DNA of 45,042 nt, from NCBI GenBank assembly GCA_024762975.1, contig JANTGJ010000013.1:1-45042 (forward strand). Direction: 5' to 3'. How positions within the stretch are numbered: the first letter of the stretch is position 1; each line of letters opens with the position of its first letter. Of this stretch, positions 2,216 to 11,707 are shown one piece after another. Under the pieces are notes generated by a model, which saw only the letters and a program-made list of their open reading frames with translations, made no database searches and had not been told where the DNA came from. This stretch comes from Candidatus Krumholzibacteriia bacterium (GTDB lineage Bacteria > Krumholzibacteriota > Krumholzibacteriia > LZORAL124-64-63). The translations under genes were made by a program, and so were the position numbers.

Positions 2216-3481
2216 ATGATTCGCTTCACACTGGCGGCGATCGTCCTGCTTCTGCTCGCGGTAGCCGGCTGCTCCGATTCCCCCGAATCGACGCCGCTGA
2301 CGCCGAAACCCGACTCCGATCCGGTTCCGACGCTCGACGCGCCCGGGCTACAGGCCCTGGCCCCCTATTCCCCCGGAGATCAGATCACGTTGCAATGGAC
2401 CGATCCGGCGAAAGAAGGAACGCATGAATACCTCGCCCAGCGTTCCGCCGATCCCGGATTCACCGACGGGATCACCTCCACGGACTGGACATCGAGCACG
2501 AGCGTTGTGTTTGCGGACCTGCCCGAGGGAATCGAGCAGCACTTCCGCGTGATGGCGCGCGACGCCGACGACGCGATCTCCGACTGGTCGGCGATCGTAC
2601 GGACGACACCGGACGCCTCACCTCCGCAATCCCGTCTGCTGGATCTGGCCGAAGAGCAGTACTCGCTGCGCTTCCAGGTTGCGTTCGAAGCTGAGGATTC
2701 CGGCGCCGGCGTGGTCGAAACCGAGCTCTGGGTGCGGCACGAGGAAGACCGGGAGTTCGAGAGGATCGGTACTTTCGAAAACAGCCCAGCCACCTTCGTG
2801 GCTGTCAAGAGCGGTCGCTACGAATTGCGGACCCTTGCCCGCGATGGCGTCGGCAACGCGGAAATCAAGCCGACGGTGGATGGCTGGACAATCGTGCCCG
2901 AACCGATCATCCTGACCGACCGCAACGGCAAGGAATGGGATATCACCAATGCGGCTCTACGATACGGAATGGCCGCTTTTCGCTGGGGTCACGGCATCGG
3001 ACAACATTCGATTCCGCCGGTGATCGCGCCCCGCCTCCTGGCGCCGAACGAACCCGGCTACCCGGAAGACGACGAGCGCTTCGAGGTTCTCGGAGTCGCC
3101 ATCAACGGCGAGGCACACGCCTACCGCATGGGGGACCTGCCGAACCGGGAGGTGGTGGACGATGTGGTCGGCAACGTGCCGGTTGCCGTCGCCTACTGAC
3201 CGCTTTGCGATTTCGCCGTAGTGTACGGCAGAACCCACGAAAACGGACAGGTACTGACGTTGGCCGCCAGCGGTTGGACCGTAGACGATCTCTTCGTTCT
3301 GTACGATTACGAGACCGAGAGTATGTGGTTCTCTTCCTTCGGCGGGGACGGAGTCAGCAACCTGACCTGCGTCGCCGGCGAGTTGCAGGATACGATGCTG
3401 CTGGGCGTGCCGTGGGATCGCACGGAATGGCGATTCTGGCAACAGGCCAACGGCCCTTCGCTGTTGATGGCCACCAAATAG
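2216..3481 (+). CDS. DUF3179-family exported lipoprotein, candidate selenoprotein (in-frame TGA at codon 328)
   Basis: A 421-residue protein read through one in-frame TGA. Residues 1-19 are a lipoprotein signal with lipobox AVAGC (Cys19). Residues about 50-135 look like a fibronectin III domain, 140-225 like a second beta-sandwich domain, and about 230-421 match the DUF3179 family, whose function is unknown. DUF3179 members normally have a YCPLC motif; here the sequence is AY-TGA-PLC, so the TGA sits exactly at the first Cys and gives U328-x-x-C331 if read as selenocysteine. The frame continues without error for 93 more codons with family-like sequence (GQVLTLAASGWTVDDLFVLYD, ESMWFSS). A hairpin fitting the bacterial SECIS pattern follows the TGA. 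The start is ATG 2216 with GGAG 7-10 nt upstream. A nonsense mutation or sequencing error is the alternative, but the exact Cys position and the hairpin favour Sec. No sel genes are in the window. Confidence 0.8.
3197..3199 (+). other. In-frame TGA, proposed selenocysteine codon
   Basis: TGA at codon 328 of the DUF3179 lipoprotein, between Tyr327 and Pro329. It replaces the first Cys of the family's CPLC motif. The next base is C (UGAC), a weak termination context. Downstream sequence stays in the same frame until TAG at 3479. Confidence 0.78.
3211..3233 (+). promoter_or_regulatory. Candidate bacterial SECIS element
   Basis: The perfect 6-bp stem GCCGTA (3215-3220) / TACGGC (3224-3229) encloses a 3-nt loop GTG (3221-3223). 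After one C-A mismatch the stem continues with three further pairs (TTT 3211-3213 with GAA 3231-3233, one of them G-U). The first loop base is G, 22 nt after the TGA. From memory, the bSECIS consensus asks for a 3-14 nt apical loop with a G in its first two positions, 16-37 nt from the UGA; this hairpin fits. The stem lies within coding sequence, as bacterial SECIS elements do. Confidence 0.68.
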
Positions 3482-3482
3482 A

Positions 3483-3511
3483 TCGCCTCCCCGGTCCGGC
3501 CGGGGAGGCGA
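3483..3511. terminator. Hairpin between convergent genes
   Basis: A 12-bp perfect stem (TCGCCTCCCCGG 3483-3494 with CCGGGGAGGCGA 3500-3511) and 5-nt loop begin one base after the DUF3179 stop codon. They lie between that gene and the convergent exported-protein gene. There is no clear T-run on either strand, so termination is inferred from position and stem strength. Confidence 0.6.
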
Positions 3512-3531
3512 CTAACCGTATCAATCATCAC

Positions 3532-4308
3532 TCAGGGCATCTTCCAGGTCACCGTCAGTGGTTCGATCGTGTCCGCCGGGAAATATCGCTGGGACAGGAG
3601 GATCACGCGGCCCTCGATATCCACCGGACGGCAGCCGCGATAGGCCTCCACCAGTTCCGCTCCCCGGGGCAATTCGATCTTGCGCGTCAGGTAACGGTCC
3701 TCGTTGAATCCCACGTTGAAAGTGTAGGACCAGATCCCGTTCACCTGCTTCGCGTGGCCCGTGCGGATCGTTCGCAGTGTCAGGCCCAGCGATTCCTTCA
3801 TCGCCACCGGCACGACGAAGTCCACCTCCACGCGAAAGGTGCCGTCCCGTTTCGGGACGATCCTGACCGGCAACTCGTTGTTGTAGGCGTCGTAGACTTT
3901 CATCGAGCGGAGTTGCTCTTCTTCCCAGGCCGCCGCGCCCCAGTCCGTACCCGTCAGGGTGATCGCACTGTCGTTGGTGATCTCGTTGTGCGACCAGACC
4001 TCGACATCGCCATCCGGCAGCACCTTCTCGTAGAAGCTGGTAAAAATCAGGCGGCCGCTGCCGTCGACCGATTCGGGAATACCGCGCTGTCCGTCGACGG
4101 TGACGAGCTGACTTTCGGGGAATCCGTAGTAGTAGTTTTCGCCCTGCAGCAGATAGCGTGCCTCACTGATGCGGCGCAGGTAGCCGTCCAGCGGCTCGTC
4201 ATGGCCCTGCAGCAGGACGCTCACCGGTTCTGCGGCTACGATCGGCCCGGTCATCCCGAGCGCGAAGAGAATCACGAGGCTCGCGAGGTGGCTCTTTCGA
4301 TTCTTCAT
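3532..4308 (-). CDS. Exported protein of unknown function, third gene of the first ECF sigma operon
   Basis: A 258-residue protein with an N-terminal signal peptide (KNRKS basic start, hydrophobic LASLVILFALGM, cleavage probably after IVAA near residue 26). The mature part is rich in beta-strand-like sequence with no motif I recognise. It has a GENYYYGFPESQ segment, a WGAAAWEEEQLRSMKVYDA segment, and near its C-terminus a single Cys (GCRPVDIEGRV). The start ATG at 4308 has GAGGAG 8-13 nt upstream. It lies 13 nt after the anti-sigma factor gene on the same strand, so it is probably co-transcribed with the sigma/anti-sigma pair. It may act in the envelope response those genes control; that is inference from position only. 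It ends facing the DUF3179 gene. Confidence 0.85.
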   Translation of the reverse strand: MKNRKSHLASLVILFALGMTGPIVAAEPVSVLLQGHDEPLDGYLRRISEARYLLQGENYYYGFPESQLVTVDGQRGIPESVDGSGRLIFTSFYEKVLPDGDVEVWSHNEITNDSAITLTGTDWGAAAWEEEQLRSMKVYDAYNNELPVRIVPKRDGTFRVEVDFVVPVAMKESLGLTLRTIRTGHAKQVNGIWSYTFNVGFNEDRYLTRKIELPRGAELVEAYRGCRPVDIEGRVILLSQRYFPADTIEPLTVTWKMP

Positions 4309-9385: not shown

Positions 9386-9435
9386 CGGTCGGTCGGAAGC
9401 AGGGACTGCTTTCGGACTGAATTTTTCAGAATATT

Positions 9436-9606
9436 GCGGCTGATGAACCAGCGGAAGTCCGGTGAGAATCCGGCGCGGCCCCGCCACTGTAAGCGGTGAC
9501 GAAACCTGCAAAATTGCCACTGATCGAGCCAGGGATGGCGAGGGGATCGGGAAGGCGCAGGGAGTAGAACGACCCGTAAGCCAGGAGACCGGTTCCAGGC
9601 CTGCCA
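9436..9606 (+). promoter_or_regulatory. Cobalamin riboswitch
   Basis: The conserved core is directly recognisable: GCGGAAGTCCGGTGAGAATC, then GGCCCCGCCACTGTAAGCGG, then TTGCCACTG, GGGAAGGC, and the B12 box AAGCCAGGAGACC at 9578-9590. GAACC at 9445-9449 can pair with GGTTC at 9591-9595 to close the structure. The aptamer ends about 20 nt before the BtuB-like start codon, so control is probably at translation initiation: adenosylcobalamin binding would hide the ribosome-binding region (GGGCGAGG). The element fits its cargo, a B12-type TonB receptor. Edges are approximate. Confidence 0.95.
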
Positions 9607-9625
9607 CCACCTTCGTGGGCGAGGT

Positions 9626-11707
9626 ATGGCTTTGGCGTTCTGTCCCGGCAGGGAGCGATCCAGAACGAAGATTTCCGGCGCGAGACCGGGGACCAAAGCA
9701 GCCATCGGGCTGCTTCTTTTGTCGTGCCTGCCGGTTTCGATCCCGGTCGTGGCCGCCGAACTCGCCGACGTCTCCCTGCACGCCGCCCGTGTCGAGGCCG
9801 ACACGCTGATCGTCAGCGCCCGCGCACTCGGCGACGCGGTCACGCCGTCGGCCGCGGGCCTGGTCTCGGTCATCGACCTGTCCGATGATCGCGGCTCCGT
9901 GGACCTGGCCGAGGCGTTGGGTCGCACTGCCGGATTCCAGGTCCGGCGCACCGGAGGCCTGGGCTTTGCCGCCGTCCCCTCGCTGCGCGGGTCGGCCGCC
10001 GCGCAGATCCGCATTCTCATCGACGGGCTGCCCCTGAACGAGGCACAGAGCGGAACGGTCGACCTTTCTCAACTGCCGGCCGATCGTTTCGCTCGCGCCG
10101 AGATCCATCGCGGCGTCGTTCCCGGCGGCTTCGGCGGCATGGGCGGCGCGGGCGCCGTGAATCTGATCACGCGCGAGCACGCCGAGGGTCTGGATTCGAC
10201 CGCTTTCGCCGGGGGGCACGGCAGCCGCGGCGGCCGCGTGACCTGGGGCTGGTCCGACGACGCGGATCGCCGCTCACTCCTGCTGATGCTCCACGCCCGC
10301 CGCGCCGACAACGACTTCAAGTACACCGACAATCGGCAGACCTTCGACAACGCGAACGACGATACGACGCGCAGCCGTGAGAATTCCTGGTTCGAGGAGT
10401 TCGGCTTCTGGGGCAAGGGCCGCGCTGCGACCGGGCCCTTGCAGTGGGAGACCAGCGCAGGCTGCTTCCGGAAGGATGGCGGGCGTCCCGGACCGATCAA
10501 CTACCCGTCCCCGCATGCCACGGTGCGCCTCGAGCGCTGCGACGGCCGCCTGGGGCTCGCGCTGCCCGGTGCGGTGACTCTCGAACTGGCCGCAGCGCGT
10601 CAGAGTGAGCACCTCTACGACCCCGAGAACGAGATCGAGGACGGTTTCGGCGGCACGATCCGAACCCTCGGCAGTGATGTGACGCAGCGACTGACCTGGT
10701 CGCCGCGGCTGTGGGATGTACCCGCCGGCGGGCACCTCGCCCTGGCGGAGCTGGTCTGCGGAGTGGACCGGCGCCGTCAATGGTACCGTCAGTGGTATGG
10801 CACCAACGAGGAGCCTCACCGCAGCCGCGCGACCCGTTCTGCTTTTGCCAGCCTGCCCCTGGCCTTCTTCGGACACCGACTGCAGGTCGTGCCGGCCTGG
10901 CGCTGGCAACGCAACAAGGACGATTTCCCGCCGGTCCCCGCGCTGCCTTGGCTGCCCGAGGAAGAAGGCGTCCAGCACGTGCGCGATGACGTCTCGCCCT
11001 CGCTGGGCGTGGTGTGGCACGTCCTTCCCGAGCGCTGGAGCATCGAGGCACACGCCGCCCGCTCGGTGCGCGTGCCGACCTGGGTTGAGCTCTTCGGACA
11101 TCGCGGCGGTATCGATGGCAACCGCGAATTGCTGCCCGAGGAACTCGACGCCGCGGACATCGGCATCGTATGGAGTGCCGCACACCATCTGCGCACCCGC
11201 CTGGCCGCCTTTTGGTCCGAGACCGACGAGACCATCGTCTTCCTGCAAAACAGCGCCGCGACGAGCAAGGCCCGCAACATCGGCGCGACACGCAACCGGG
11301 GCCTCGAGTGGGAGCTGGTTGCCTCGTTGCCGGCACGCCTCAAGCTGCAGGGCAACCTGACGGCGCAACGGCCCGAGGATCGCGGCGACCAGGCCCAGTA
11401 CCACGGCAAGGACCTGCCCTACCTCAGTCGCTGGGAAGCCGATGTGCGATTGAGCCGCCGCTTCGACGAGGGATCGGCCTGGCTGGAGGCCTCCAGCCAG
11501 AGTGGCAGGTATCGCGACCGCGCCAATACCGAATCGATTCGCGCCGAGGCGCGGACGCTGTGGAATCTGGGCTTCAGCCGAACCTGGCGTGACCACTACG
11601 AACTGAGTTTCGAGGGCATCAACCTCGGCGACGACCGGACCTATGACATCGTGCAGTTCCCATTGCCGGGACGAACCTGGCAAGTGGCGCTGCGCGGAAA
11701 ACACTGA
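9626..11707 (+). CDS. btuB: BtuB-like TonB-dependent outer-membrane receptor (cobalamin uptake)
   Basis: A 693-residue receptor that would import cobalamin across the outer membrane using TonB energy. A signal peptide covers about residues 24-44 (KAAIGLLLLSCLPVSIPVVAA) after an unusually long polar start. DTLIVSA (59-65) matches the BtuB-type TonB box. The plug domain follows, with LAEALGRTAGFQVRRTGG, PSLRGSAAAQIRILIDGLPL and the typical GGMGGAGAVNLITRE. The barrel ends in FPLPGRTWQVALRGKH, with aromatic-rich alternating strands as expected. The start ATG 9626 lies just behind the riboswitch; the ribosome-binding region is GGGCGAGG. The riboswitch makes cobalamin, not iron, the likely ligand. 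A secreted beta-propeller gene follows after 10 nt and is probably co-transcribed. Family call is secure; ligand is inferred from the riboswitch and TonB box. Confidence 0.93.
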   Translation: MALAFCPGRERSRTKISGARPGTKAAIGLLLLSCLPVSIPVVAAELADVSLHAARVEADTLIVSARALGDAVTPSAAGLVSVIDLSDDRGSVDLAEALGRTAGFQVRRTGGLGFAAVPSLRGSAAAQIRILIDGLPLNEAQSGTVDLSQLPADRFARAEIHRGVVPGGFGGMGGAGAVNLITREHAEGLDSTAFAGGHGSRGGRVTWGWSDDADRRSLLLMLHARRADNDFKYTDNRQTFDNANDDTTRSRENSWFEEFGFWGKGRAATGPLQWETSAGCFRKDGGRPGPINYPSPHATVRLERCDGRLGLALPGAVTLELAAARQSEHLYDPENEIEDGFGGTIRTLGSDVTQRLTWSPRLWDVPAGGHLALAELVCGVDRRRQWYRQWYGTNEEPHRSRATRSAFASLPLAFFGHRLQVVPAWRWQRNKDDFPPVPALPWLPEEEGVQHVRDDVSPSLGVVWHVLPERWSIEAHAARSVRVPTWVELFGHRGGIDGNRELLPEELDAADIGIVWSAAHHLRTRLAAFWSETDETIVFLQNSAATSKARNIGATRNRGLEWELVASLPARLKLQGNLTAQRPEDRGDQAQYHGKDLPYLSRWEADVRLSRRFDEGSAWLEASSQSGRYRDRANTESIRAEARTLWNLGFSRTWRDHYELSFEGINLGDDRTYDIVQFPLPGRTWQVALRGKH

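Follow-up and report, generated by a model that had tools for sequence, protein, structure and literature searches.

The family of domain of unknown function DUF3179 (PF11376) is listed among selenoprotein families, with the motif UxxC/T, in two reviews (PMC9312934, 2022; PMC13188914, 2026), the second of which credits DUF3179 selenoproteins to Zhang and Gladyshev (2007) in an Olavius algarvensis symbiont; the accessible text of this literature gives no function for them. The gene analyzed here lies in a window of 45,042 nt, the whole stretch of DNA that was analyzed, which constitutes contig 13 of a draft genome (3.81 Mb, 265 contigs, 96% complete). It belongs to the same family as the listed proteins and would carry selenocysteine (Sec) at the same first motif position, in the form UxxC, whereas it differs from them, as judged by the reviews' listing, in being a short form of the domain borne on a lipoprotein with two fibronectin-III-like (FN3-like) domains. 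Since DUF3179 is already listed in both reviews, the gene represents a further DUF3179 selenoprotein and not a new family, as the initial annotation had proposed.

The gene starts at ATG 2216, immediately preceded by a ribosome-binding-site-like GGAG, and its frame contains exactly one stop codon before the terminal TAG, namely TGA 3197-3199 at codon 328, within the sequence VAVAY-U-PLCDFAVVYGR. Direct reading thus bore out the initial annotation as to the single in-frame TGA and the frame that stays open beyond it to a normal stop, and as to its placement at the first Cys of a YCPLC-like motif. The features of the locus are as follows.

2216..3481, plus strand: selenoprotein gene encoding a DUF3179 lipoprotein of 421 residues (ATG 2216, TAG 3479-3481; direct reading and Pfam match)
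2216..2272, plus strand: predicted lipoprotein signal peptide with the lipobox VAGC at residues 16-19 (Cys19), from sequence pattern only
2342..2905, plus strand: two FN3-like beta-sandwich domains, about residues 43-230 (structural model, Foldseek)
2906..3478, plus strand: DUF3179 domain, short form, residues 231-421 (Pfam match at 265-418, domain model)
3197..3199, plus strand: in-frame TGA decoded as selenocysteine, Sec328 (64 homologues share the codon at this alignment position)
3206..3208, plus strand: codon for Cys331, the second Cys of UPLC, variable across the family (homologue alignment)
3213..3231, plus strand: bacterial SECIS-like hairpin with a six-pair stem (3215-3220/3224-3229) and a GUG loop (3221-3223), 21 nt after the UGA
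3368..3370, plus strand: codon for Cys385 (homologue alignment)
3482..3512, no strand assigned: strong inverted repeat directly 3' of the TAG, with a T-rich tail on the minus strand only, so that it may terminate transcription of the converging gene

The TGA is almost certainly translated as Sec, a reading already put forward in the initial annotation and now backed by the selenocysteine machinery of the host, the TGA of a DUF3179 paralogue in its genome, 64 homologues that share the codon and a covarying SECIS element. DUF3179 is present in 36 of 80 genomes of the phylum, and further homologues were drawn from a Calditrichia set. Among 87 aligned homologues, the TGA column holds U in 64, C in 11, S in six, H in five and N in one, and never Trp or Gly; the Sec homologues are spread over several families of the phylum and their Calditrichia relatives. 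On a tree of 83 DUF3179 homologues three changes suffice to account for the Sec state, and the window gene groups with nine other short-form Sec proteins, all from its own family, in a clade with full support. The second gene of the host genome (L001, contig C46, 1408-2325, minus strand) resembles the window gene in having TGA in the same column, UPLC and a SECIS-like stem at the same place, and differs from it in encoding a long form of 305 residues that lacks FN3-like domains and belongs to a separate clade.

Several loci stood out in their own right. Two divergent DUF3179 relatives on minus strands (L064 and L111), which share a long separate branch, read UGVC and UVVC at the Sec position and are possibly another Sec subfamily. 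A Calditrichia MAG (L055, 4863-7805) harbors three tandem short DUF3179 genes, two with TGA and the first with Ser (SGFF replacing UPLV), apparently a copy from which Sec has been lost. In a further clade (L042-L046, L050, L052, L077, L078 and L080) the Sec/Cys column is occupied by Ser or His (SPLS, HPLS), so neither selenol nor thiol chemistry is possible at that place.

As the genes are free of insertions from the TGA up to the conserved VVY, stem positions downstream of the TGA can be compared directly. When positions 13-20 after the TGA were paired with positions 31-24, 43 Sec genes gave 294 stem pairs, whereas none of 1000 synonymous-codon shuffles exceeded 236 (z 12); the count is biased in favor of the stem, which had been outlined on a few of these sequences beforehand; the 16 non-Sec homologues, which served as the control, gave 52 pairs at the same stem where about 55 were expected (z -0.8). 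In 41 sequences, seven of the eight pairs showed double changes that keep the pairing (covariation 0.401, versus 0.188 in shuffled sequences), and sliding the stem partners by one to three columns abolished the signal, with all values far lower. RNAalifold recovered the same hairpin after the TGA unaided. In the larger set, six or all of the seven outer pairs were formed in 61 of 64 Sec genes versus none of 23 non-Sec genes, and the loop G corresponding to position 3221 was found in 63 of the 64. The hairpin of the window gene, with a 3-nt loop that opens with G then U, a spacing of 21 nt and an energy of -10.7 kcal/mol, lies within the limits for bacterial SECIS elements set out in PMC13188914 (loop of 3-9 nt, upper stem of 4-16 bp, G in the first two loop positions, 16-37 nt after the UGA, energy of -7.5 kcal/mol or lower). 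Taken alone its stability does not exceed that of shuffled sequence (z -0.76), and hence the case for a SECIS element rests on the comparison. Thermodynamic folding of the 45 nt 3' of the TGA failed to distinguish Sec genes from non-Sec genes (mean z -0.88 versus -0.61), which the count of the specific stem did tell apart.

Read across the TGA, the protein matches PF11376 at residues 265-418 (E = 9.7e-25, 88 bits against a curated cut-off of 27 bits), a match that spans only profile positions 3-147 of 292 (3-149 for the short form). The whole-protein model (pLDDT 88.7) gave Foldseek matches to FN3 tandems (E 1e-8) and to nothing beyond these domains, and the FN3-like region also has a weak OmpL47-like match. 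The DUF3179 domain model (pLDDT 95.5, pTM 0.89) consists mostly of beta strands and would place Sec328 at the end of the first strand, in the turn between strands 321-328 and 333-338; a fold search with this model found no solved structure at E 0.001, and a PDB sequence search gave no match. Thioredoxin-fold UxxC selenoproteins share the U-x-x-C spacing with the window gene, whereas the window protein is predicted to be mostly beta, has its Sec at a strand end and is without a PDB match. The mostly-beta model does not fit a thioredoxin-like UxxC oxidoreductase, as it shows neither the thioredoxin fold nor a UxxC at the start of a helix. The initial view of the site as a redox motif of the U-x-x-C type was therefore upheld in part: the motif is there in the window gene, but its second Cys is found in only 29 of 64 Sec homologues and the predicted fold is not thioredoxin-like.

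We favor a redox role for Sec328, which we regard as somewhat probable: Sec328 would most likely be the residue that reacts in chemistry of the oxidoreductase or peroxidase type, and either Cys331 or Cys385 may be its resolving partner. Invariant or nearly so are Sec328, the Pro and Leu that follow it, Glu312, Arg339, Ser352, Gly353, Asp364, Thr367 and Trp371. Cys385 occurs in 34 of 61 Sec homologues versus two of 21 non-Sec homologues (Fisher p 0.0002), although this excess comprises only three independent pairs and kinship may account for it, and 19 of the 61 lack both candidate resolving Cys. The main rival to this reading is that Sec is inserted but serves as a metal ligand, the CPxC turn resembling a rubredoxin or zinc knuckle through which the domain would bind or sense a metal. 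The modeled position of the motif, in a turn between two strands of a mostly-beta domain, would suit such a role, as do CPLCG and CTLCG among the Cys homologues; nevertheless, 35 of the 64 Sec homologues have A, V, E, I, Q, T or R at the fourth position, so a two-ligand knuckle is not kept, and the window protein is devoid of a second CPxC. We consider a metal-binding turn unlikely, though still worth weighing against the reactive-residue reading.

Far less probable is a pseudogene or an assembly error, in which the TGA would be a genuine stop, or a misread TGC, and the downstream frame a relic. The genome is, to be sure, a draft in 265 pieces, and a search for a closely related genome with the exact same locus found none. 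However, the same TGA recurs in homologues from separate assemblies, the host's own paralogue included, which in practice excludes gene decay or an error in sequencing; codon use and conservation are alike on both sides of the codon, with GC at third positions of 0.77 upstream and 0.76 downstream and an identity to full-length orthologues of the same family of 46-53% N-terminal and 40-49% C-terminal to it; and the SECIS element covaries.

The host genome encodes the entire Sec pathway: selA (454.7 bits), selB (318 bits), selD (358.7 bits) and a tRNA-Sec (selC) that scored 68.4 bits, over the Rfam threshold, with the anticodon TCA by ARAGORN. All four genes being there, a lack of selB, selC or selD cannot be held against Sec. 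As selB is above the cut-off in 73 of 80 genomes of the phylum, a correlation between Sec-containing DUF3179 proteins and selB has no power. The selD gene (L082, 3927-5000, host contig C59) has an in-frame TGA of its own, in KSAGUAAK, at the position where SelD proteins have Cys or Sec, so that the selenophosphate synthetase itself looks like a Sec protein. Genome-wide recoding of TGA to Trp or Gly, in favor of which stands only that the codon is read through here, can hardly be correct, given the complete Sec machinery with its TCA tRNA, the confinement of sense TGA to one column of the DUF3179 family, the presence of Cys, Ser, His or Asn but never Trp or Gly in that column elsewhere, and the use of TGG for conserved Trp residues and of TGA as the stop of the adjoining gene (3532-4308, minus strand), which together indicate that TGA is not a general sense codon.

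In the Sec reading, SelB would deliver Sec-tRNA(Sec) to UGA 3197 with the aid of the mRNA hairpin at 3213-3231, after which translation would run on to TAG 3479. The product is predicted to undergo export and to receive a lipid on Cys19 that keeps it in the periplasm or at the surface, and the two FN3-like domains may act as a spacer that presents the C-terminal DUF3179 domain. Whereas the insertion steps are strongly supported, export is proposed from the signal pattern, and the chemistry and its substrate are our inference; the lipoprotein assignment of the initial annotation agrees with the signal peptide and lipobox, and such a signal is common to the orthologues L062, L065, L067 and L071. 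Gene neighbors, in the window and in two other genomes, did not indicate a pathway: surface-type proteins surround the window gene, and a beta-propeller and an outer-membrane-like protein are found in the two other genomes. Elsewhere in the window, a cobalamin riboswitch (93 bits, 9404-9610, plus strand) lies directly upstream of a TonB-dependent receptor gene (9626-11707), which is likely a vitamin B12 transporter.

Relative to the motif UxxC/T listed in the reviews, the wider set assembled here adds UxxA, UxxV, UxxE, UxxI, UxxQ and UxxR. Within the accessible text of the literature on DUF3179 selenoproteins, the 2007 study aside, we found no description of the FN3-bearing short lipoprotein form, of the variety of residues other than Cys at the fourth position or of the lack of a solved structural relative. 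No NCBIfam model names the window protein or its relatives, and annotation pipelines will therefore probably truncate such genes at the TGA.

Tentatively, the short DUF3179 clade may constitute a class of its own among surface selenoenzymes, its fold resembling no solved structure. One Sec, placed at a beta turn, would then carry out the chemistry, while the thiol partner would have moved in evolution and could be the residue at +3, a Cys that follows 57 residues later or an external thiol. To summarize, members of a family of 'unknown function' from at least two phyla use Sec at a single fixed position, and the exact residue on which its role can be tested is now provided.
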